Program-made: the position numbers and the translations under genes
Origin: an uncultured Verrucomicrobiota bacterium
GTDB lineage: Bacteria; Verrucomicrobiota; Verrucomicrobiia; Opitutales; Seribacteraceae
Reading direction: 5' to 3'
Length of the DNA stretch: 64,000 nucleotides
NCBI GenBank assembly: GCA_902618175.1
Contig: CACMZN010000003.1
Span: 1 to 64,000 of the forward strand
The notes under the pieces: generated by a model
Told to the model about the DNA's origin: nothing
Database searches by the model: none
What the model saw: the letters and a program-made list of their open reading frames with translations, nothing else
Part shown: in pieces, positions 42,248 to 53,128 of the stretch
Layout of the letters: every line of letters begins with the position of its first letter
Position numbering within the stretch: the stretch's first letter is position 1

Positions 42248-42946
42248 ATGTTCGATAAAACAGTCACTGACAATTATCACGACAAAATTGCCCTTCAAGT
42301 TAGGGAAGCAAGAAAAGACTTCGGCAAGGTGCCTGTTTTGAAAGGAATCAACCTTGAAATACAGGTAGGTGAAAGGGTCGCTCTTATGGGTCCGAGCGGA
42401 AGTGGCAAATCTACCTTGTTGAACTGTATTTGCGGAATCGAACCACTCGATTCAGGGGAAATCTCTTTGGGAGGAAACTCCCTAAGTAATTTATCTAATC
42501 ACGAATTAGACAAACTGAGACGCGAAAAAATCGGTTATGTCTTTCAATCTTTTCATCTCCTTCCAACACTTAGTGCATTTGAGAACATTGAATTTTCGGC
42601 TCAGCTGGTCGGTATTAAAAAAAATCAACGGCTCGAGTTGGTAAGTCACTTGCTCGAACGAGTGGGTCTAAGCAATCGGGCAAGTCATTTTCCCGATGCT
42701 CTAAGTGGAGGAGAGCGACAGAGGGTTGCCTTGGCTCGAGCGCTAATTCACAAACCTCGGTTGATTCTTGCAGACGAACCAACTGGAAGTCTGGACACTG
42801 CCAATGGCAATCAAGTGCTTGAACTGTTGAAAAGTTTGTCCGAAGAACATGGGGTATCACTTCTCTTAGTTACTCATGATCATACTTCGACTCAAATTTG
42901 TGATCGTGTGATTACCATGAAGGATGGAAATTTGGAAATTTTTTGA
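42248..42946 (+). CDS. ABC transporter ATPase (LolD/MacB type)
   Basis: MGPSGSGKSTLLNCICGIE; LSGGERQRVALARALIHKPRLILADEPTGSLD. Confidence 0.95.
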   Translation: MFDKTVTDNYHDKIALQVREARKDFGKVPVLKGINLEIQVGERVALMGPSGSGKSTLLNCICGIEPLDSGEISLGGNSLSNLSNHELDKLRREKIGYVFQSFHLLPTLSAFENIEFSAQLVGIKKNQRLELVSHLLERVGLSNRASHFPDALSGGERQRVALARALIHKPRLILADEPTGSLDTANGNQVLELLKSLSEEHGVSLLLVTHDHTSTQICDRVITMKDGNLEIF

Positions 42947-45535
42947 ATGAAACGGTTGCCAACGGTCTTCAAACTTCTCTGGCTTCTTTTTTCCATCACG
43001 ACTTTTCGTCATTTTCGAGCTAAGGTAGGACATTATTTCTTACTGGTCGCGATTGTTGCTGTCGGAGTGGGAGCGTTCAATGGTATAAGACAGGCGAGTC
43101 GTGCAGCATCCGCCAATTTCGGTCTCTTCAATCAAGCGGTTTCCGGAAGAAGTGACTTTTTAATTGAGTCACCCTCTCAACGCATTCTTGAATCTAGCCT
43201 TCTGGACTTGCAAATCCTAAACGAAGATCCTGACTGGCATCTGGTTCCAGTAATCGAGGGGTCGATTACCACTCTTGGAGAAGATAAAAATCCTGAAAAG
43301 CAAATCCGTTTGATTGGTCTGGATTTGCTGGCTTTGGGAAACTTGCCGAATGTCCTTGAACAAAATCTCGAATTTGCTGAAAAAGACGACAAGTGGCACG
43401 AATGGCTTGGTAGTGAGCGAGATGTTTGGATCGGTCGGAAAGGAGCAGAAGCTCTGGGTGCCCAAGTGGGAGATGAGATTCCCATCCTTGCCAGTGGAAG
43501 AAGAATGAAAATGAAAATTCGCATGATTCTTGATGATCCAGATGGGAACTTACCCGAGGATTTAGCCTTAGGAGACATACCAACCATTCAAAATCTACTT
43601 AGTCGGAAAGGTGAAATCAACCGAGTCGAAGTTATCCTCGATCAAATCGAGAAAAGAGAAGATCTCGAATATTTGAAGAAAATTGAGAATCGCTTGGCTG
43701 CCGTTCTTCCAAAGGAATTAATTCTTGGACCTACGGAAAATCGAGCGGCTGAACGTGCGGCGATGACTGCCGCATTCCGTCTCAACCTTTCAATTCTTTC
43801 TCTGATTGCCATTCTTGTTGGAGCGTATTTGATTCTGCAAGCTTTGGATGCCGCAGTTGTTCGAAGAAGAGTTGAAATTGCTACCTTGCGGTCTTTGGGA
43901 ATCGACCGATCAATCCTTTTTTTGGCTTATTTGCTTGAAGCTTTGCTTTTGGGTCTATTGGGATCGATCGCAGGGATCGGTGTTGGATATCTGCTTGCCT
44001 TTGCTTCCGTAGGTATGCTCGCTGATACGGTTAACGCACTTTACTTTTCCACCTCAATCGAAGCCTTGACCATAACTTCTCTTGATTTGGGAATCGGAAT
44101 CGGATTGGGTCTGGTTTTTAGTTTTCTCGCGGGATGGCTTCCGGCTCGAGACGCTACTCAAACCCCTCCTGCTCAAATACTTGCCAGAGGGGACTGGTCG
44201 CCGGGCTTTTCTTTGTTGAAAAATCCTAAGATTGGTCTGTCTCTGATAGCAGTGGGCATTCTAAGTCTTCTTTTACCCCCCTTTGTGATGGAGGGTGGAT
44301 CAAACATGCCACTTGGAGGATTCATTGCAGCAGGTTGTTGGATACTTGGTCTTGCTTTTCTTTCCGGTCATTTTCTCGTCCTGATTGCTGGTTGGATGCG
44401 TCCTTTATGCATTACTCCGTCTTCGCGTCTGGCATGCAGTCGACTGCAAGACGGGTCCAGTCGTCATCGCTTGGCAGTTGCCGGATTGGTCGTGGCAGTC
44501 GGGATGGTTACTGGAATGTTTCAGATGATCGATAGTTTTCGGGGAACTATTCAGGAATGGTTCGAAGTTCGTTTCCAAGCTGATCTTTACGTTTCCGAGC
44601 GTGGAGTCACCGGTGCTGGCAATCTGAACGGAATTGATCCCGAATTGATGGATGAATTACTCAGTGATTCAACGATTCGTTTTGCCGACGTCATGCATTT
44701 GTGCTACGCGAAACCCAAAACAGGTATTACAATTCTTGCCGGAGTGGACCTTGATGCTTGGAATGACCGCGTTCAGCAAATCTGGCTGAAACCACCGGGC
44801 TCGCTTAAATCACGAGAGGGAGTGGAGCCTGCCTTGATCAGCGAAGCATTCGCAAGACGATTCGATTTGCTGGAAGGAGGGGTGATGGAATTGGACTTGC
44901 CAAGTGGTCGAAAGTCGATTTCCCCTTATGGAATTTTTTCCGACTACGGGAACGAATTCGGTACTGCAGCGATTGATTCAGAAACTTGGAAATCCTGGAC
45001 CGGATCTCGTCGTCCGGTAAACGCAAGTTTGTACTTAAAAGATGAATTCGAAGTCAATGCAGCGCGGGATCGCTTGCGTGTTGCTTTTCCAGGTTTGGAT
45101 GTTCGTAACGGAAAAGAACTGAGGGAAGTGGCGCTTGGTATTTTTGAACAAACATTTAAGGCAACCGATGCACTCAGCCTCATTGGACTTGCCGTTGCCT
45201 TTGCAGGGTTACTTTTGGGTTTGCTTTCTATTTTTGATGAATCAAATCGTACTTGGCAAACTCTTCGCCATCTTGGATTTTCAACCCGACAATTCCTTTG
45301 GTCAGCGAGTTTTGAAGGAGCTGGCATCGGATTGACTGCTTGGGTAAGTGGCAGCATTGCCGGTCTTGCCATGGGATGGCTTTTGGTTCATGTAATAAAT
45401 GTTCAATCTTTCGGTTGGACTTTGATATGGAACATACCCATTGGTGAGTTTTTACTTTTTGGAATTCTCCTGATTGGAGTGGGATTTTTTTCCGGTTTCA
45501 TATCTGCAAACTACTGGAATTTTCGAAGAAAATGA
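42947..45535 (+). CDS. ABC transporter permease, FtsX/MacB-like (two FtsX domains)
   Basis: 862 aa; VVRRRVEIATLRSLGIDRSILFLAYLLEALLLGLLGSIAGIGVGY; second ...TLRHLGFSTRQFLWSASFEGAGIGL near the C-terminus. Confidence 0.9.
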   Translation: MKRLPTVFKLLWLLFSITTFRHFRAKVGHYFLLVAIVAVGVGAFNGIRQASRAASANFGLFNQAVSGRSDFLIESPSQRILESSLLDLQILNEDPDWHLVPVIEGSITTLGEDKNPEKQIRLIGLDLLALGNLPNVLEQNLEFAEKDDKWHEWLGSERDVWIGRKGAEALGAQVGDEIPILASGRRMKMKIRMILDDPDGNLPEDLALGDIPTIQNLLSRKGEINRVEVILDQIEKREDLEYLKKIENRLAAVLPKELILGPTENRAAERAAMTAAFRLNLSILSLIAILVGAYLILQALDAAVVRRRVEIATLRSLGIDRSILFLAYLLEALLLGLLGSIAGIGVGYLLAFASVGMLADTVNALYFSTSIEALTITSLDLGIGIGLGLVFSFLAGWLPARDATQTPPAQILARGDWSPGFSLLKNPKIGLSLIAVGILSLLLPPFVMEGGSNMPLGGFIAAGCWILGLAFLSGHFLVLIAGWMRPLCITPSSRLACSRLQDGSSRHRLAVAGLVVAVGMVTGMFQMIDSFRGTIQEWFEVRFQADLYVSERGVTGAGNLNGIDPELMDELLSDSTIRFADVMHLCYAKPKTGITILAGVDLDAWNDRVQQIWLKPPGSLKSREGVEPALISEAFARRFDLLEGGVMELDLPSGRKSISPYGIFSDYGNEFGTAAIDSETWKSWTGSRRPVNASLYLKDEFEVNAARDRLRVAFPGLDVRNGKELREVALGIFEQTFKATDALSLIGLAVAFAGLLLGLLSIFDESNRTWQTLRHLGFSTRQFLWSASFEGAGIGLTAWVSGSIAGLAMGWLLVHVINVQSFGWTLIWNIPIGEFLLFGILLIGVGFFSGFISANYWNFRRK

Positions 45536-46662
45536 AATTTATTCCTTTTATGTTTTTGCTCATACATCTTTTTTCCCATGGAGAATGGATCCAACCACCT
45601 CTTCGAACCTCTACCGGCTTTCGGGTTCCTTCACCAGATCATTATCCGAACTTTCCTCGCGATCATGGAGCTCATCGCGAATATGCTTTGGAATGGTGGT
45701 ACTGGATTGGTCATCTGCGATCCGTTGAAGACAAGAGGGAGTTTGGTTTTCAAGCGACTGTTTTCAGAGTTGCTGGTGACCCTACTGATGCCAACAAACT
45801 TGAAACCAGCTTGTTTGGCAGTCGGCAACTACATCTTGCTCACTCTGCTCTGAGCGATTTGAACTCTGGAGAATACATTCATTGTGAACGAATTTTGCGT
45901 GAGGGTTGGCAGGCTAAGGTTTCAACAAAGACATTGTCGATGAAGGTGGGTGGCATCGAAGCCGGACTGCTTACGAAGAAGGAAGGCCATAAAATTTCGG
46001 TTCGCTATCCAAATGGAGCAGTTCTACGGCTTGCTCTTATTCCATCCAAGCCATTGGTTCGTTTTGGAGATCGTGGACTAAGCAGAAAAGGAAGCGAACC
46101 AGCCTCCGTCAGCTGGTATTGGACCTACACTCGTCTAGAGGCCAAGGGAACACTTTTTTATCGGGGTGTGGAAAGAAAAGTGGAAGGTCTGGCTTGGATG
46201 GATCACGAAATTTCATCCAGTCAATTGGGTAAGGGTCTGGTCGGATGGGATTGGACTTGTATGCACTTGAACGATGGGACTGAACTCAAAGCGTATCGTC
46301 TTCGAACGGAGGAGGGCAGTTGCGATCCATGGTCTGCAGTGTATTGGATTAACTCCGACGGATCGACAACATCCGTAAAGTCGGAGAATTTTAATTGGCT
46401 CACTGAAAAGTTTTGGAAAAGCCCCAAAACAAAACTCGAATATCCAACTTCAGTCAAAATTATCGTACGCCATCCCACTCGTGGAGTATGTACTTACCGG
46501 ATTAGACCTCTTATTGAAAATCAGGAATTCCATGGAAATCGTGCAGATAATGCTTATTGGGAAGGGGCTTGCGAAGTACTGGATTCTACTAACAAAAGAA
46601 TTGGTAAAGCATATCTTGAACTAGCTGGCTATGGAGGTGGGTTGGGAGCCAGACTCAACTAG
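45532..46662 (+). CDS. Secreted lipocalin-like hydrolase (AttH/CrtC-type lipocalin superfamily)
   Basis: PRDHGAHREYALEWWYWIGHLRS...GLAWMDHEISSSQLGKGLVGWDWTCMHLNDGTELKAYRLR; ATGA coupling to the permease gene. Confidence 0.85.
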   Translation: MKFIPFMFLLIHLFSHGEWIQPPLRTSTGFRVPSPDHYPNFPRDHGAHREYALEWWYWIGHLRSVEDKREFGFQATVFRVAGDPTDANKLETSLFGSRQLHLAHSALSDLNSGEYIHCERILREGWQAKVSTKTLSMKVGGIEAGLLTKKEGHKISVRYPNGAVLRLALIPSKPLVRFGDRGLSRKGSEPASVSWYWTYTRLEAKGTLFYRGVERKVEGLAWMDHEISSSQLGKGLVGWDWTCMHLNDGTELKAYRLRTEEGSCDPWSAVYWINSDGSTTSVKSENFNWLTEKFWKSPKTKLEYPTSVKIIVRHPTRGVCTYRIRPLIENQEFHGNRADNAYWEGACEVLDSTNKRIGKAYLELAGYGGGLGARLN

Positions 46663-47240: not shown

Positions 47241-48071
47241 GTGAAAATAAAATCCACCTATCTCCTAATCCTCACCCTAATGCTTTCCCCGCTCTTAGCG
47301 TTTGGGGACAATCACGACGCTGACGCATCGGCTGTTGCAGCAATGAGTTACGACGGTTCTCTGGACCCCAATGATTTCGTTGGCATCAGCTTCTGGCTTG
47401 CCACCGCGATCATGCTTACGGCAACCGTTTTCTTCTTCATTGAACGCGACCGAGTCAAAGGCAAGTGGAAAACTTCTCTCTCCGTTGCAGGGTTAGTTAC
47501 GGGTATTGCTTTCTGGCACTACTTGTATATGCGTGACGTCTGGGTGAATACAGGCGAAAGCCCGACCGTATTCCGTTACATCGACTGGTTGATTACCGTA
47601 CCTTTGCAGATTGTGGAATTTTACCTCATTTTGGCCGCAGTTACCATGGTGAAGGCCGATCTTTTTTGGAAATTGCTTATTGCATCTCTTGTTATGCTCA
47701 TTGGAGGCTACATGGGTGAAGCAGGATACATGGAACCAAATCCCGCTTTTGTCATAGGCATGGCAGGATGGTTCTATATCATTTGGCAAATTTTCAAGGG
47801 TGATGCCGCGCAGATTAACGAAGCTAGCGGTAATCCTAACTCTCAGATGGCGTTTAAAACCATCCGCAACATCGTGACATTTGGATGGGCGATCTATCCT
47901 CTTGGCTATTTCTTGGGTTACATACAAGGCGACGGACCTATGAGTCCCGAAAACCTTGCCAATCTGAATATTATTTACAACCTCGCCGATTTAATTAACA
48001 AAGCGGCTTTTGGATTGGCAATTTGGGTTGCTGCTACTAATGACAGCGAAACCGAGCAGCCACAGTCTTAA
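47241..48071 (+). CDS. Proteorhodopsin-type light-driven proton pump, predicted blue-absorbing
   Basis: FRYIDWLITVPLQIVEFYLIL: D115/T119/E126 (= D97/T101/E108 of green PR) and Q123 (= 105); helix G LADLINKAAFG with Schiff-base Lys; GTG start with signal peptide. Confidence 0.97.
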   Translation: MKIKSTYLLILTLMLSPLLAFGDNHDADASAVAAMSYDGSLDPNDFVGISFWLATAIMLTATVFFFIERDRVKGKWKTSLSVAGLVTGIAFWHYLYMRDVWVNTGESPTVFRYIDWLITVPLQIVEFYLILAAVTMVKADLFWKLLIASLVMLIGGYMGEAGYMEPNPAFVIGMAGWFYIIWQIFKGDAAQINEASGNPNSQMAFKTIRNIVTFGWAIYPLGYFLGYIQGDGPMSPENLANLNIIYNLADLINKAAFGLAIWVAATNDSETEQPQS

Positions 48072-48094
48072 GGCTTAACCACGGCAGGTTCTTG

Positions 48095-49006
48095 ATGAAC
48101 CAAGTTTCTTTGAGCCTGAGCCGTCTAAACAGGCGGCTCAGGCATCATTTTTCAAAGGATGCCGTTCTGTGCGAGTATCTGAAGGATTCCTATTTTTGGA
48201 CTGGTCAGGGTATTCGTGGAAAAATCTGCCTATGGACAGGCAAATCCTTTCGAATTGAAGATGATATCGTTTTGGACGTAGCTTGCTTCACTGAGCTTCT
48301 TCACAATGCAAGCCTAATCCACGACGATATCATTGATGATGATACCGAACGAAGAGGTGGTGAGACCTTCTGGAAAAAACAAGGACGTGCCAAAGCTTTG
48401 CTGGTGGGGGATCTTCTCATTGCAAAAGCTTTTGAGGTCGCATCCAGCGTTGATTGTGATCCTAAGATCAAAACTAGCTGGGTTGGCATTTTAGCGAATA
48501 CAGTTTCACATGCTGTTCGCGGCGCGACAACCGAACTAAGTTTTTTTGTTCCAGAAAATGAATGTATCCTTTCCGCATATTCCAAAATGGCCGCAGACAA
48601 AACTGGTGTCTTGTTTTCGCTTCCTATTCGATGCTTAGCATTAGTCGCATCCTTGGATGAAGAACAAACCGCATCCTTGGCTTCCATCTTTTCTGATCTT
48701 GCCGTTGCTTATCAAATACGCGACGATCAAGCTGATTTTCTTGGAGATAAATTGGGTCGATCCCATTCTTCCGATATCCTTAATGGCAGACCCAATATCT
48801 ATCATTTGATGTCTACCTCAGAAACGATTGAAGAATCTTTATTTTCCTCCATCGAATCCCACCAGAAATTGTTGATTGATTCGGCTGTGCGTACCTCTTT
48901 ATCCTTCCCCTACGAAATCCAAGATTTGGTAGAAAATCTCCTTTTGCCCTTCGTCCGCTTGAAACCCTATTCGCCCTCGCGTTTGGAAGTTCCTCTCGCG
49001 GGGTAA
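48095..49006 (+). CDS. crtE: Polyprenyl (probably geranylgeranyl) diphosphate synthase, divergent
   Basis: LIHDDIIDDDTERRGGETFW (first Asp-rich motif), QIRDDQADFLGD (second). Confidence 0.85.
   Translation: MNQVSLSLSRLNRRLRHHFSKDAVLCEYLKDSYFWTGQGIRGKICLWTGKSFRIEDDIVLDVACFTELLHNASLIHDDIIDDDTERRGGETFWKKQGRAKALLVGDLLIAKAFEVASSVDCDPKIKTSWVGILANTVSHAVRGATTELSFFVPENECILSAYSKMAADKTGVLFSLPIRCLALVASLDEEQTASLASIFSDLAVAYQIRDDQADFLGDKLGRSHSSDILNGRPNIYHLMSTSETIEESLFSSIESHQKLLIDSAVRTSLSFPYEIQDLVENLLLPFVRLKPYSPSRLEVPLAG
48114..48143 (+). promoter_or_regulatory. Strong hairpin (possible attenuator) at proteorhodopsin/crtE boundary
   Basis: Perfect 10-bp stem GCCTGAGCCG-tctaaacagg-CGGCTCAGGC followed by ATCATTTTTC. 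Confidence 0.5.
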
Positions 49007-49042
49007 CTTTTGAACCTTTTGCGAACCAGCCGTTGTTGAACC

Positions 49043-51358
49043 TTGTTCGACAGTAGTTCATCGGCAACTAAAAAAGCACTTGTTGTTGGTGCCGGCTTCG
49101 GGGGCCTTGCCATGGCTCTTCGGCTCCGCCGACTTGGATACGCAGTTAGTATTCTCGACAACAACCCTAAGGCTGGCGGACGAGCGCAGGTTTACGAAAA
49201 AGACGGTTATAAATTTGATGGGGGTCCGACAGTGATCACCGCTCCTTTTTTATTCGACGAGCTTTTTTCACTCTTCGGTAAGAAACGGTCCGATTACGTT
49301 GAATTCCTCCCGGTCGAGCCTTGGTACCGATTTGAATTCTCAGACGGTGAAAAACTCGATTATGGAGGTAAGCTTGAGGATACGATTGAAGAAATCAATC
49401 GTCTATCGCCTGGAGAGGGAAAAGGGTACGAGGATCTGGTTAATTTTTCCAAGAGAATCTTTCGGATTGGTTTTGAGAAATTAGCCGACCAGCCTTTTCA
49501 TCAATTCGGCATTATGCTTCTGCAAGTTCCTGCTCTTCTTGCCTTAAGGAGTTACTTGTCGGTGTATTCATTGGTCAGCAGTTTCCTGAAGGACAACAGA
49601 CTCCGTCGTGCATTCAGCATCCATCCTTTGTTGGTTGGAGGAAATCCTTTGAACACCACCTCCATATACTGTTTGATTCATTACTTGGAAAGAAAGTGGG
49701 GTGTTTGGTTCCCCAGGGGAGGAACTGGTGCATTGGTCGAAGCCTTGGTTCGATTGATTAAGGAAGAAGGAATCCAAATCGATCTCAACTCACAAGTCGA
49801 ACAAGTGCTGGTTGAAAAGGGGGCGGCTCGCGGAATTCGGCTCGCAGATGGTTCGGAGAGAAAATACGATCTTTTGGTTTTCGACGCCGATCCTCCCAAG
49901 GTATACCGCGACTTGATCGATGAAAAGCACCGTAGTAAGTGGACCAATAACCGTATCAATCGTCTGTCTTATTCCATGGGCTTGTTCGTTTGGTATTTCG
50001 GAACTTCCAAGTCTTATCCGGAGGTTGAGCATCATACCATTCTAATGGGGGAGACTTTTAAGGAACTGCTTCGAGAAATCTATGACCAGAAGGTTCTTTC
50101 TGATGACCTCAGTCTTTATCTCCATCGTCCTGCCGCAACTGATCCTTCCATGGCTCCCGAGGGAGGGGATGCTTTTTACGTGCTTGCTCCAGTACCTAAT
50201 CAGCAGGCCAATATAAAATGGAAACAGGAAGGAGAAAAAGTCCGGTCGCAAATTGAGAAGCAACTGGCAGATACCCTTCTTCCTGGACTCGGCGACTGCC
50301 TTGAGGTGTCATTCTTCGTCACTCCCGACGACTTTCGAACCCGGTTCAACACTCACTTGGGCAGTGGGTTTTCAATTGCCCCGATTTTTCGCCAATCCGC
50401 TTGGTTCCGATTTCACAACCGCTCCGAAGAGTTGAAAAACCTCTACTTTTGCGGAGCAGGTACCCATCCAGGGGCGGGAGTTCCCGGCGTGGTTTCTTCC
50501 GCACGAGTAGTGGAAAAACTCGTACCTCCATCAAGAGGGGGAAACGAGCAAGAATTTCAAAAACTTTTCCGTTCGAAAAGCAGGACTTTTTCCCTCGCTT
50601 CCTTTCTTCTTCCGAAAGATCAAGCGGATGCGATTGTTCGTCTCTATTTCGTTTGTCGGACACTTGACGATTGGGCGGACGAGGGACATGAAGAAGATTT
50701 AACCGGAGCTATGGAAAGTTGGACACAGCACAAGCCGCATCCTCTGCTCGATCACTATCGTTTTCTACAAGCCCGATGGGGACTCGATTCCCAGCCCATG
50801 ACTGATTTGCTTACGGCAATGATCAAGGAGCAAAAAGGAGTCCTCATTCAAACCAAGGATGAACTTCTTGAGTATTGCCACGGGGTTGCAGGGACCATTG
50901 GACTGATGACCAGTCCAATTTTCGGGGTTACGGATCCTGCGGCCATGAAACATGCCGATGACTTGGGAATCGCGATGCAATTGACCAATATTTGCCGAGA
51001 TGTTTTCGAGGATGCCCGAAACCAAAGGATTTACTTGCCTGCTGATTTGTTCGAATCTCCATTTTCGGCCGAAGATATCACTTCTTGCGAATGTTCCGTT
51101 CGTCAGAAAGAAATTTCCTTGGTCAAGAATCAACTTTTGCGTTTGGCAGATGAGCATTATGCGAGCGGTGAGTCGGGAATCAAATACCTTCCCTGGCGAA
51201 TGCGGATCGTGATTCGTTGGGCCGGTCGAATGTATCGCGAAATTGGCGAAGTCATTCGCAAGGACCCGGATACCTACCACAAAAAACGAGCTGTGGTCAA
51301 AACACTGAAAAAACTTAAGATTCTCGCCCCTTGTCTAAGCCGTTCCTTTCTTTCCTAG
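49043..51358 (+). CDS. Bifunctional phytoene desaturase (CrtI)-phytoene synthase (CrtB) fusion
   Basis: N-terminal KKALVVGAGFGGLAMALRLRRLGYAVSILDNNPKAGGRA and CGAGTHPGAGVPGVVSSARVVEKL (CrtI); then SRTFSLASFLLPKDQADAIVRLYFVCRTLDDWADE and LTNICRDVFEDARNQRIYLP (CrtB) in one 771-codon frame. Confidence 0.96.
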   Translation: MFDSSSSATKKALVVGAGFGGLAMALRLRRLGYAVSILDNNPKAGGRAQVYEKDGYKFDGGPTVITAPFLFDELFSLFGKKRSDYVEFLPVEPWYRFEFSDGEKLDYGGKLEDTIEEINRLSPGEGKGYEDLVNFSKRIFRIGFEKLADQPFHQFGIMLLQVPALLALRSYLSVYSLVSSFLKDNRLRRAFSIHPLLVGGNPLNTTSIYCLIHYLERKWGVWFPRGGTGALVEALVRLIKEEGIQIDLNSQVEQVLVEKGAARGIRLADGSERKYDLLVFDADPPKVYRDLIDEKHRSKWTNNRINRLSYSMGLFVWYFGTSKSYPEVEHHTILMGETFKELLREIYDQKVLSDDLSLYLHRPAATDPSMAPEGGDAFYVLAPVPNQQANIKWKQEGEKVRSQIEKQLADTLLPGLGDCLEVSFFVTPDDFRTRFNTHLGSGFSIAPIFRQSAWFRFHNRSEELKNLYFCGAGTHPGAGVPGVVSSARVVEKLVPPSRGGNEQEFQKLFRSKSRTFSLASFLLPKDQADAIVRLYFVCRTLDDWADEGHEEDLTGAMESWTQHKPHPLLDHYRFLQARWGLDSQPMTDLLTAMIKEQKGVLIQTKDELLEYCHGVAGTIGLMTSPIFGVTDPAAMKHADDLGIAMQLTNICRDVFEDARNQRIYLPADLFESPFSAEDITSCECSVRQKEISLVKNQLLRLADEHYASGESGIKYLPWRMRIVIRWAGRMYREIGEVIRKDPDTYHKKRAVVKTLKKLKILAPCLSRSFLS

Positions 51359-51365
51359 AATACGG

Positions 51366-52064
51366 ATGACTTATCTGGACTTTCTCTTTCGTTTTCTGGG
51401 AATTCCCCTTCTTTTATGTATTTTGGTTGCCTGGAAAAAGTCCAGACTTGGAAAATCTCAAGCTTATGGAATTTTACTTATGGGTGTAATCGCCCTTCTC
51501 TACACAACTCCTTGGGACAATTACCTGATCATGCGAGGAGTCTGGAGTTACCCCGACGGCGTGGTTCTTGGAACCTTCGGATATGTCCCATTCGAAGAGT
51601 ATGGATTCATGCTTTTGCAAACTTTTCTGGCCGGAGCCTTGTGGTCGATGTATCCCCGAATTTCCGGTAAATATGCTCTTAGTTTTTCACCTCTTGGACT
51701 TCTTCCGGCAGTTGCAATTGGGATAGTCGGAGCATTTTGTCTGTTCGTTGACAGCGGAACCTACGCAGGTCTAATTCTCTTGTGGGCATTCCCACCCCTT
51801 GCCCTGCAGTGGGGATTGGGATGGAAATGCCTCCATAAATCAATGAAGACTTGGCTGATGCCTTGGGCCGGACTCACTATCTATTTGTGCCTTGCCGATT
51901 CCTATGCCATTTACAAGGGAATCTGGTCTCTCACGCCCTCAACTCGTTCTGGTTGGGATCTTGGAAACTTACCCGTGGAAGAAGCTCTCTTTTTTGCCGT
52001 CACTAATTTATTCGTTTTTCAAGGCCTTTGTTTATGGGATATTTGGAAAGGAACTTCGTCGTGA
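51366..52064 (+). CDS. Lycopene beta-cyclase, fused CrtYc-CrtYd type membrane protein
   Basis: Duplicated halves: TTPWDNYLIMRGVWSYPDG..PFEEYGFMLLQT and LADSYAIYKGIWSLTPS..PVEEALFFAVTN. Confidence 0.93.
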   Translation: MTYLDFLFRFLGIPLLLCILVAWKKSRLGKSQAYGILLMGVIALLYTTPWDNYLIMRGVWSYPDGVVLGTFGYVPFEEYGFMLLQTFLAGALWSMYPRISGKYALSFSPLGLLPAVAIGIVGAFCLFVDSGTYAGLILLWAFPPLALQWGLGWKCLHKSMKTWLMPWAGLTIYLCLADSYAIYKGIWSLTPSTRSGWDLGNLPVEEALFFAVTNLFVFQGLCLWDIWKGTSS

Positions 52065-53128
52065 AGTGGATTGAATGGAATCCGGTTCCTTTCACTCTCA
52101 AATCCAAGGAATCACTCCCCTCTAAATATTCCTTTGGTCTTACGCAACTCAGCTTGACCCTGCTTCTGCCAATGGGGGTTTTGGGCTACCTCAGTCATGA
52201 TTGGCCGGTCGCCTGGAAGCTTCTTCCGCTTTACCTAAGTCTTTTTATTTTCGGAATGCCCCATGGAGGTGCTGATCATCTGCTTATTTGGGGAATGATC
52301 AAGAACAGTTCATTTGGATTCCGCATCGGCACCCTGCTCGCATACCCGATACTATCGATGATTTATCTGGCAGTATGGAATCTTCAACCTCTTCCTTCCG
52401 CCCTCTTTTTCCTCGGTCTGACCGTTTTTCACTGGGGACAGGGGGACCATTACCTCAGTGTCAAACTGCACCAAGCAATCTACCTCGAACGATCCGGCTT
52501 ACTCAAGTGGTTGCATGTTTTTTCACGTGGAAGCATCCCGATTCTTCTTCCTGGATACTTAGGCAACGAGACCTACCGCGAATTTGCCGAAGCCATCGTC
52601 CGCCAAGGCGGACAAGTTCAACACGAACTGGTGTGGATATCACAAAACCCCCACTTTTTTCTGTTTGTCCCCCTCGGTTTGACTGCACTTCAGTTATTGC
52701 TCTCGCTACTTAGGCTGGAGAAAGGGGAGGGCAAGGCACTTCGTTTCGACGCCCTTGAAGCAGGTATACTTTTTCTTTGGTTTCTCTTTGTTCCACCTCT
52801 CTGGGCGATTGGTTCCTACTTTGCTCTTTGGCACAGTCTCCGTCATGGTCTACGCATTCTATGGATTGATCAAGAAGGACGGATCCAACTTCAAAGCAGT
52901 CAGTTTCTGAAACTCAAGTTCCGCTGGCTTCAGCTTACCGGATTGATGACCCTACTCGCTCTAGTCGGACTGTGGTTCATCCTTGCTCTTCCGCTTAATT
53001 TTCGGGGCATCCAACTCGACTGGCTTGGAAAGGCCATGCTGGGAATTTCCATCCTCACTCTTCCTCATACTGTGGTGGTCTGTTTCATGGACAAGCTGCA
53101 ATTGAACCGAGTAAAATCCTGCTGTTGA
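52028..53128 (+). CDS. blh: Beta-carotene 15,15'-dioxygenase, Brp/Blh family
   Basis: IFGMPHGGADHLLIW; LTVFHWGQGDHYLS; ALWHSLRHGLRIL; LPHTVVVCFMD. A start near 52062 (GTG) is possible. Confidence 0.94.
   Translation: MFMGYLERNFVVKWIEWNPVPFTLKSKESLPSKYSFGLTQLSLTLLLPMGVLGYLSHDWPVAWKLLPLYLSLFIFGMPHGGADHLLIWGMIKNSSFGFRIGTLLAYPILSMIYLAVWNLQPLPSALFFLGLTVFHWGQGDHYLSVKLHQAIYLERSGLLKWLHVFSRGSIPILLPGYLGNETYREFAEAIVRQGGQVQHELVWISQNPHFFLFVPLGLTALQLLLSLLRLEKGEGKALRFDALEAGILFLWFLFVPPLWAIGSYFALWHSLRHGLRILWIDQEGRIQLQSSQFLKLKFRWLQLTGLMTLLALVGLWFILALPLNFRGIQLDWLGKAMLGISILTLPHTVVVCFMDKLQLNRVKSCC

Follow-up and report, generated by a model that had tools for sequence, protein, structure and literature searches.

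A fused phytoene desaturase-phytoene synthase gene, crtIB, in the proteorhodopsin-retinal operon of an uncultured Verrucomicrobiota bacterium

The window, i.e. the whole stretch of 64,000 nucleotides from an uncultured Verrucomicrobiota bacterium that was analysed, carries an operon in the order proteorhodopsin, crtE, crtIB, crtYcd and blh. The spacing of successive frames, as listed by the program, is 20, 36, 7 and -37 nt. Coordinates and family matches are given in Table 1. The rhodopsin contains the motifs RYIDWLITVPLQIVE and LINKAAFG; on the basis of RYIDWLITVPLQIVE we take it to be a proton pump of the DTE type whose spectral-tuning residue is Q, and the retinal lysine lies in LINKAAFG. 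For crtE, the ATG at 48095 is a more likely start than the TTG at 48092, and blh probably begins some codons further in than the TTG listed for it. The product of crtYcd shows the two CarR-type repeats described by TIGR03462, in agreement with the original prediction, which had placed a cyclase of the CrtYcd type 7 bp downstream of crtIB.

Table 1. Features of the proteorhodopsin-retinal operon in the window
Feature	Position	Strand	Remarks
proteorhodopsin	47241..48071	+	PF01036 E 2e-44
crtE, geranylgeranyl diphosphate synthase	48095..49006	+	PF00348 E 2.5e-40
terminator-like hairpin	48114..48143	+	within the 5' part of the crtE frame; about 40 nt past rhodopsin stop; covarying in clade
crtIB, fused phytoene desaturase-phytoene synthase	49043..51358	+	771 aa
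CrtI domain	49076..50530	+	residues 12-496; TIGR02734 570 bits; PDB 4dgk E 2e-137
inter-domain linker	50531..50560	+	about 11 residues, length constant in clade
CrtB domain	50570..51301	+	residues 510-753; PF00494 199 bits; both Asp-rich motifs
crtYcd, single-chain CrtYcd-type lycopene cyclase	51366..52064	+	TIGR03462 E 2e-36; PF18916
blh	52028..53128	+	PF15461 E 4e-45; TIGR03753 202 bits; overlaps crtYcd

The crtIB frame is open across its 771 codons. Of the possible starts, the TTG at 49043 alone leaves the Rossmann motif intact; a TGA stands in the same frame upstream, at 49037, and the distance from the start to the CrtI domain is similar in most relatives. The first half scored 568.6 bits with TIGR02734 (crtI_fam; cut-off 238.1) and has both the Rossmann motif and the C-terminal motif of CrtI, the latter (GAGTHPGAGVPGV) at residue 471. 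The second half matched PF00494 (SQS_PSY) with 195.4 bits against a cut-off of 26, and shows the two Asp-rich motifs expected of a CrtB with this fold, DDWAD at residue 542 and RDVFEDARNQRIYLP at residue 652. The reading of this locus as a complete CrtI and a complete CrtB in one frame was thus confirmed; the short linker was found as well, but the 16 residues noted for it were too many, since the gap between the domain envelopes comprises 11 residues inside those 16. CrtIB scored below the cut-offs of the NCBIfam CrtB equivalog models, so that the C40 specificity of the CrtB half rests on context. By sequence, the closest solved structures were Pantoea CrtI (4dgk) for the CrtI half and CrtM-type synthases for the CrtB half, and AlphaFold2 confidently modelled the full-length protein as one unit (pLDDT 87, pTM 0.88), with a predicted fold matching 4dgk and the CrtM-like structure 8is6. 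In the window frame, GTG codons 16 and 23 residues ahead of the CrtB domain may serve as internal starts of minor use; no such start was conserved clade-wide.

Judging from what is known of each family, the operon would encode a complete route from geranylgeranyl diphosphate (GGPP) to retinal. CrtE would produce GGPP, a chain length deduced from context because its best NCBIfam matches lie below equivalog cut-offs. From two GGPP the C-terminal CrtB domain would then form 15-cis-phytoene, the CrtI domain at the N-terminus, which is FAD-dependent, would turn phytoene into all-trans lycopene via desaturation and isomerisation, CrtYcd would cyclise lycopene to beta-carotene, and Blh would cleave beta-carotene to yield retinal for the pump. 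Both the sole PF00494 match and the sole full-length CrtI of the genome (67% complete) correspond to crtIB, which plausibly makes lycopene from GGPP; in the literature on such fusions, no demonstration of CrtIB enzyme activity was found.

CrtI and CrtB are usually encoded by separate genes. Previous work on cultivated photoheterotrophic Verrucomicrobiota has already reported a CrtIB fusion, in a cluster type named "PR-1" of which the authors consider it the distinctive feature (PMC10284914, ISME J 2023). Ca. Pelagisphaera phototrophica and the other PR-1 Verrucomicrobiota of that study share with the window the phylum, the fusion and the operon type pr-crtE-crtIB-crtY-blh; the window belongs to a different genome of the phylum, and no anatomical difference was found. 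Since the window has the one-frame fusion within a verrucomicrobial rhodopsin-crtE-crtIB-crtY-blh cluster, with both halves monophyletic with verrucomicrobial fusions, its CrtIB is a further member of the published PR-1 type and is not new as a kind.

Relatives were gathered from class, order and phylum searches together with a scan of GTDB genomes. A search for the domain architecture across Verrucomicrobia, as had been proposed with the original prediction, recovered the fusion repeatedly: it was present in Opitutales MAGs, in single-cell-named (AG-/AH-) assemblies and in a 4.09-Mb single-contig genome (G213). Over the full length, window CrtIB was 61-75% identical to its relatives (87% in the case of one same-genus relative), the nearest named ones belonging to Opitutales/Opitutia. 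All 18 verrucomicrobial fusions compared have a linker of 11 residues, the sequence of which varies, and the gene order PR-crtE-crtIB-crtYcd-blh is kept across the clade, whose monophyly received a support of 100 (CrtI), 99 (CrtB) and 100 (concatenated). In verrucomicrobial pairs with measurable dS, dN/dS values were 0.03-0.11 for CrtI and 0.08-0.16 for CrtB, and both halves are under purifying selection. That an assembly artefact or a frameshift joined two separate genes has a next to negligible probability: the window comes from one MAG and the frame is broken inside CrtI in one relative (G106, L013/L043), but an identical junction is seen in many independent assemblies, including the single-cell ones and the one-contig genome. 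Because the fusion recurs with an identical linker length across the whole clade examined, CrtIB is more than a product of chance or assembly error.

Two observations concern the distribution of PR-1. Within the window's genus the operon is patchy, being present in about 10 of 23 genomes, and several genomes that lack it are >90% complete. At about 8240-8275 of L043 (G106), a break in the CrtI part of a PR-1 crtIB frame reflects either a pseudogene or a sequencing error.

The unfused verrucomicrobial relatives offer a view on how the fusion formed. Their crtI and crtB genes mostly meet in ATGA or TGATG overlaps or are a few nt apart, and because of these overlaps they are probably translationally coupled. 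In the nearest unfused loci by CrtB (L015, L019 and L153), the protein tails at the junction sum to 9-11 aa, near the 11 residues of the linker. Since the tails of such coupled junctions add up to about the linker length, a small indel or the loss of a stop would be enough for fusion, and the present-day junctions point to one of these as the route. We consider it very probable that crtIB is the lycopene-making gene of the proteorhodopsin-retinal operon and that it was fused once, in the ancestor of the Opitutales operon type, from an adjacent and coupled crtI-crtB pair. In two betaproteobacterial loci, L222 (G1045) and L223 (G1133), crtI and crtB lie in one frame with a single TAA between them, one substitution away from fusion.

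CrtIB fusions were also detected outside this clade. The GTDB scan yielded six betaproteobacterial loci (L067, L091, L093, L098, L100 and L106), of which L067 is the named strain Polynucleobacter brandtiae UB-Domo-W1, and a genome of the same order (G986, L221) carries a likewise fused gene. These freshwater bacteria resemble the window in having a CrtI-CrtB fusion in a rhodopsin cluster but differ from it by a longer linker (22-33 residues), a FAD-type CrtY and, according to the AU test, a separate origin. G291, which belongs to the window's order, carries a third type, in which the gap measures 14 residues and CrtY is of the FAD type. In both the CrtI and the CrtB trees the betaproteobacterial fusions are interspersed with unfused genes from betaproteobacteria and Verrucomicrobia, and the unfused L026/L028 form the sister of G291.

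A single origin of all bacterial CrtIB, with all fusions forced into one clade, was rejected by the AU test on CrtI (p 8e-6), CrtB (p 0.001) and the concatenation (p 2e-54), values which come from trees built by 'quick' searches, with a simpler model for the concatenation. Grouping the verrucomicrobial fusions with the betaproteobacterial ones was rejected on CrtI (6e-5) and the concatenation (8e-15), and grouping them with G291 was rejected on the same two datasets (0.002 and 0.005, respectively); CrtB alone rejects neither pair (0.225 and 0.34, respectively), so that the case against the pairs comes from the other two datasets. The best reading of these comparisons is that bacterial CrtIB has at least three independent origins. 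No mention of betaproteobacterial CrtIB fusions was found in the literature, which weakly suggests that they are unreported so far; what is new here are these fusions, that of the third lineage and the rejection of a single origin.

Several other candidates were discarded. An apparently archaeal CrtIB (L065, in the Euryarchaeota SAT1390 bin with an archaeal S6e protein) was rejected, as the tetranucleotides of its contig match Verrucomicrobia and not its own bin; the contig was probably misbinned rather than transferred, and the same probably applies, less sharply, to L057, a contig with the verrucomicrobial cluster in a SAR92 bin (NIOZ-UU62). The long open frames of G110 and G173 do not contain CrtB and were rejected as fusions. 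No viral copies of CrtIB were found in IMG/VR, and among the matches listed for PLSDB plasmids crtI and crtB occurred as split pairs.

Unfused marine proteorhodopsin-retinal clusters, such as those of SAR92, SAR116 and Colwellia, share the gene order of the window, with CrtI about 50-54% and CrtB about 31-40% identical, but have separate crtI and crtB genes and a FAD-type CrtY instead of CrtYcd. The fungal CrtYB, CarRP and AL-2 proteins, like the window locus, combine a phytoene synthase with a CrtYcd-type cyclase; there, however, the two are fused to each other, without CrtI (see also PMC2889829). Thraustochytrid (Aurantiochytrium) CrtIBY and the CrtI-B-Ycd-Blh protein of Thecamonas trahens (PMC5924542, PMC10016063) share with the window the order I-B followed by a CrtYcd-type cyclase, but in them the cyclase is fused too and the domains belong to another lineage according to published trees. 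In the window the cyclase is not part of the fusion: the crtIB frame stops at 51358 and a separate crtYcd begins at 51366.

The original prediction had also raised a kinship between the window fusion and the eukaryotic CrtIBY, and this part found no support in an indirect comparison. Rius et al. 2023 (PMC10016063) placed the CrtB, CrtI and CrtYcd domains of CrtIBY inside an Actinobacteria/Bacteroidetes/Archaea lineage, where the thraustochytrid CrtB falls within Actinobacteria, its CrtI branches as the sister of Bacteroidetes and its CrtYcd lies near Rhodothermaceae and halobacteria, and discussed fusion after transfer. In our CrtI and CrtB trees, which are without eukaryotic and Bacteroidetes sequences and in the case of CrtI include some very long reference branches, both window halves grouped with proteobacterial-type rhodopsin clusters and not with such a lineage, the Streptomyces and Halarchaeum references lying outside those clusters, across starred branches. 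Because the halves join proteobacterial-type clusters to the exclusion of the actinobacterial and haloarchaeal references, a common fused ancestor with CrtIBY is unlikely. Such an ancestor, which would make a bacterium the donor of the eukaryotic fusion, might be suggested by the same domain order, I-B and then Ycd, by the T. trahens protein, whose I-B-Ycd-Blh order is that of the window operon, and by the fact that the text of PMC10016063 names no Verrucomicrobia. The published placement of the eukaryotic CrtB and CrtI, the independent recurrence of CrtI-CrtB fusions and the commonness of the I-B-Y order in unfused operons all count against it, and we regard it as very improbable. The I-B-Y order is in fact generic, as it is also found in ordinary rhodopsin operons and in actinobacterial ones (PMC10016063), and the case cautions that a shared fusion architecture need not mean shared descent.

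The fusion fixes synthesis of the two enzymes at 1:1 and brings them together; any gain in flux or channelling by CrtIB is presumptive. The view that CrtIB channels phytoene from CrtB to the active site of CrtI has been argued in PMC10284914 from synthetic fusions, and would suit a linker that is short and constant in length as well as the high pTM of the predicted whole-chain model. The pTM, however, says nothing of active-site geometry, and phytoene is membrane soluble, so that proximity alone may suffice; channelling seems doubtful. It is quite conceivable, if short of an even chance, that CrtIB arose neutrally, as a by-product of the adjacency and coupling of crtI and crtB, and brings no kinetic benefit: a single small mutation would fuse the genes at the junctions of unfused relatives, L222/L223 among them, and many rhodopsin clusters are still unfused. 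At least three independent fusions, all of them in rhodopsin-linked clusters where the flanks are readable, and a linker length long conserved in one clade weigh on the other side, yet both are compatible with neutrality. A broader proposal, namely that selection has repeatedly favoured CrtI-CrtB fusion in rhodopsin-retinal operons, with at least three bacterial origins, because the joined unit would supply the precursor of retinal from few enzyme copies and hand phytoene directly between sites, appears to us rather unlikely. The three apparent origins together with their close unfused relatives form a ready-made set for testing flux gain or phytoene channelling, a question approached so far with synthetic fusions.

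The hairpin that follows the rhodopsin gene is perfect and GC-rich, lies within the first crtE codons and is followed by T's. All 17 fused clusters in which the region could be examined have a hairpin, at -19.5 to -31.9 kcal/mol; in control stretches of crtIB the median was -10.5 and the strongest value -19.0 kcal/mol. In an alignment of 15 sequences, 95.9% of cells pair, a percentage that arises partly by construction because the sequences were cut around hairpins from the folding scan; sliding the hairpin partner lowered pairing to 31-51%. Six of 13 pairs changed on both sides, and these double-sided changes are better evidence for the hairpin than the percentage paired. No Rfam family matched near it, and a limited search of the literature found no description of a rhodopsin-crtE hairpin. 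Most of the other rhodopsin clusters sampled (L015-L031, L067, L069-L126), including most unfused ones, likewise have a strong hairpin soon after rhodopsin, mostly before crtE and often with T-runs, which suggests that it is a general feature of rhodopsin-carotenoid operons. The simplest reading of these sequences is that of a candidate attenuator between the rhodopsin and the crt genes: many transcripts would end after rhodopsin and few would continue into the crt genes, which would suit an operon that has to supply much of the pump but little of the enzymes.

Upstream of the operon, positions 42248-46662 of the window encode an ABC transporter ATPase, an FtsX-type permease and a CrtC/Lipocalin_9 protein. 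The last (45532-46662), despite its match to PF07143, was rejected as the carotenoid enzyme CrtC, as it comes after the ATPase and the permease; it probably is a lipocalin-like transporter partner for which the name CrtC is misleading. This lipocalin gene was also found near the cluster in L066.
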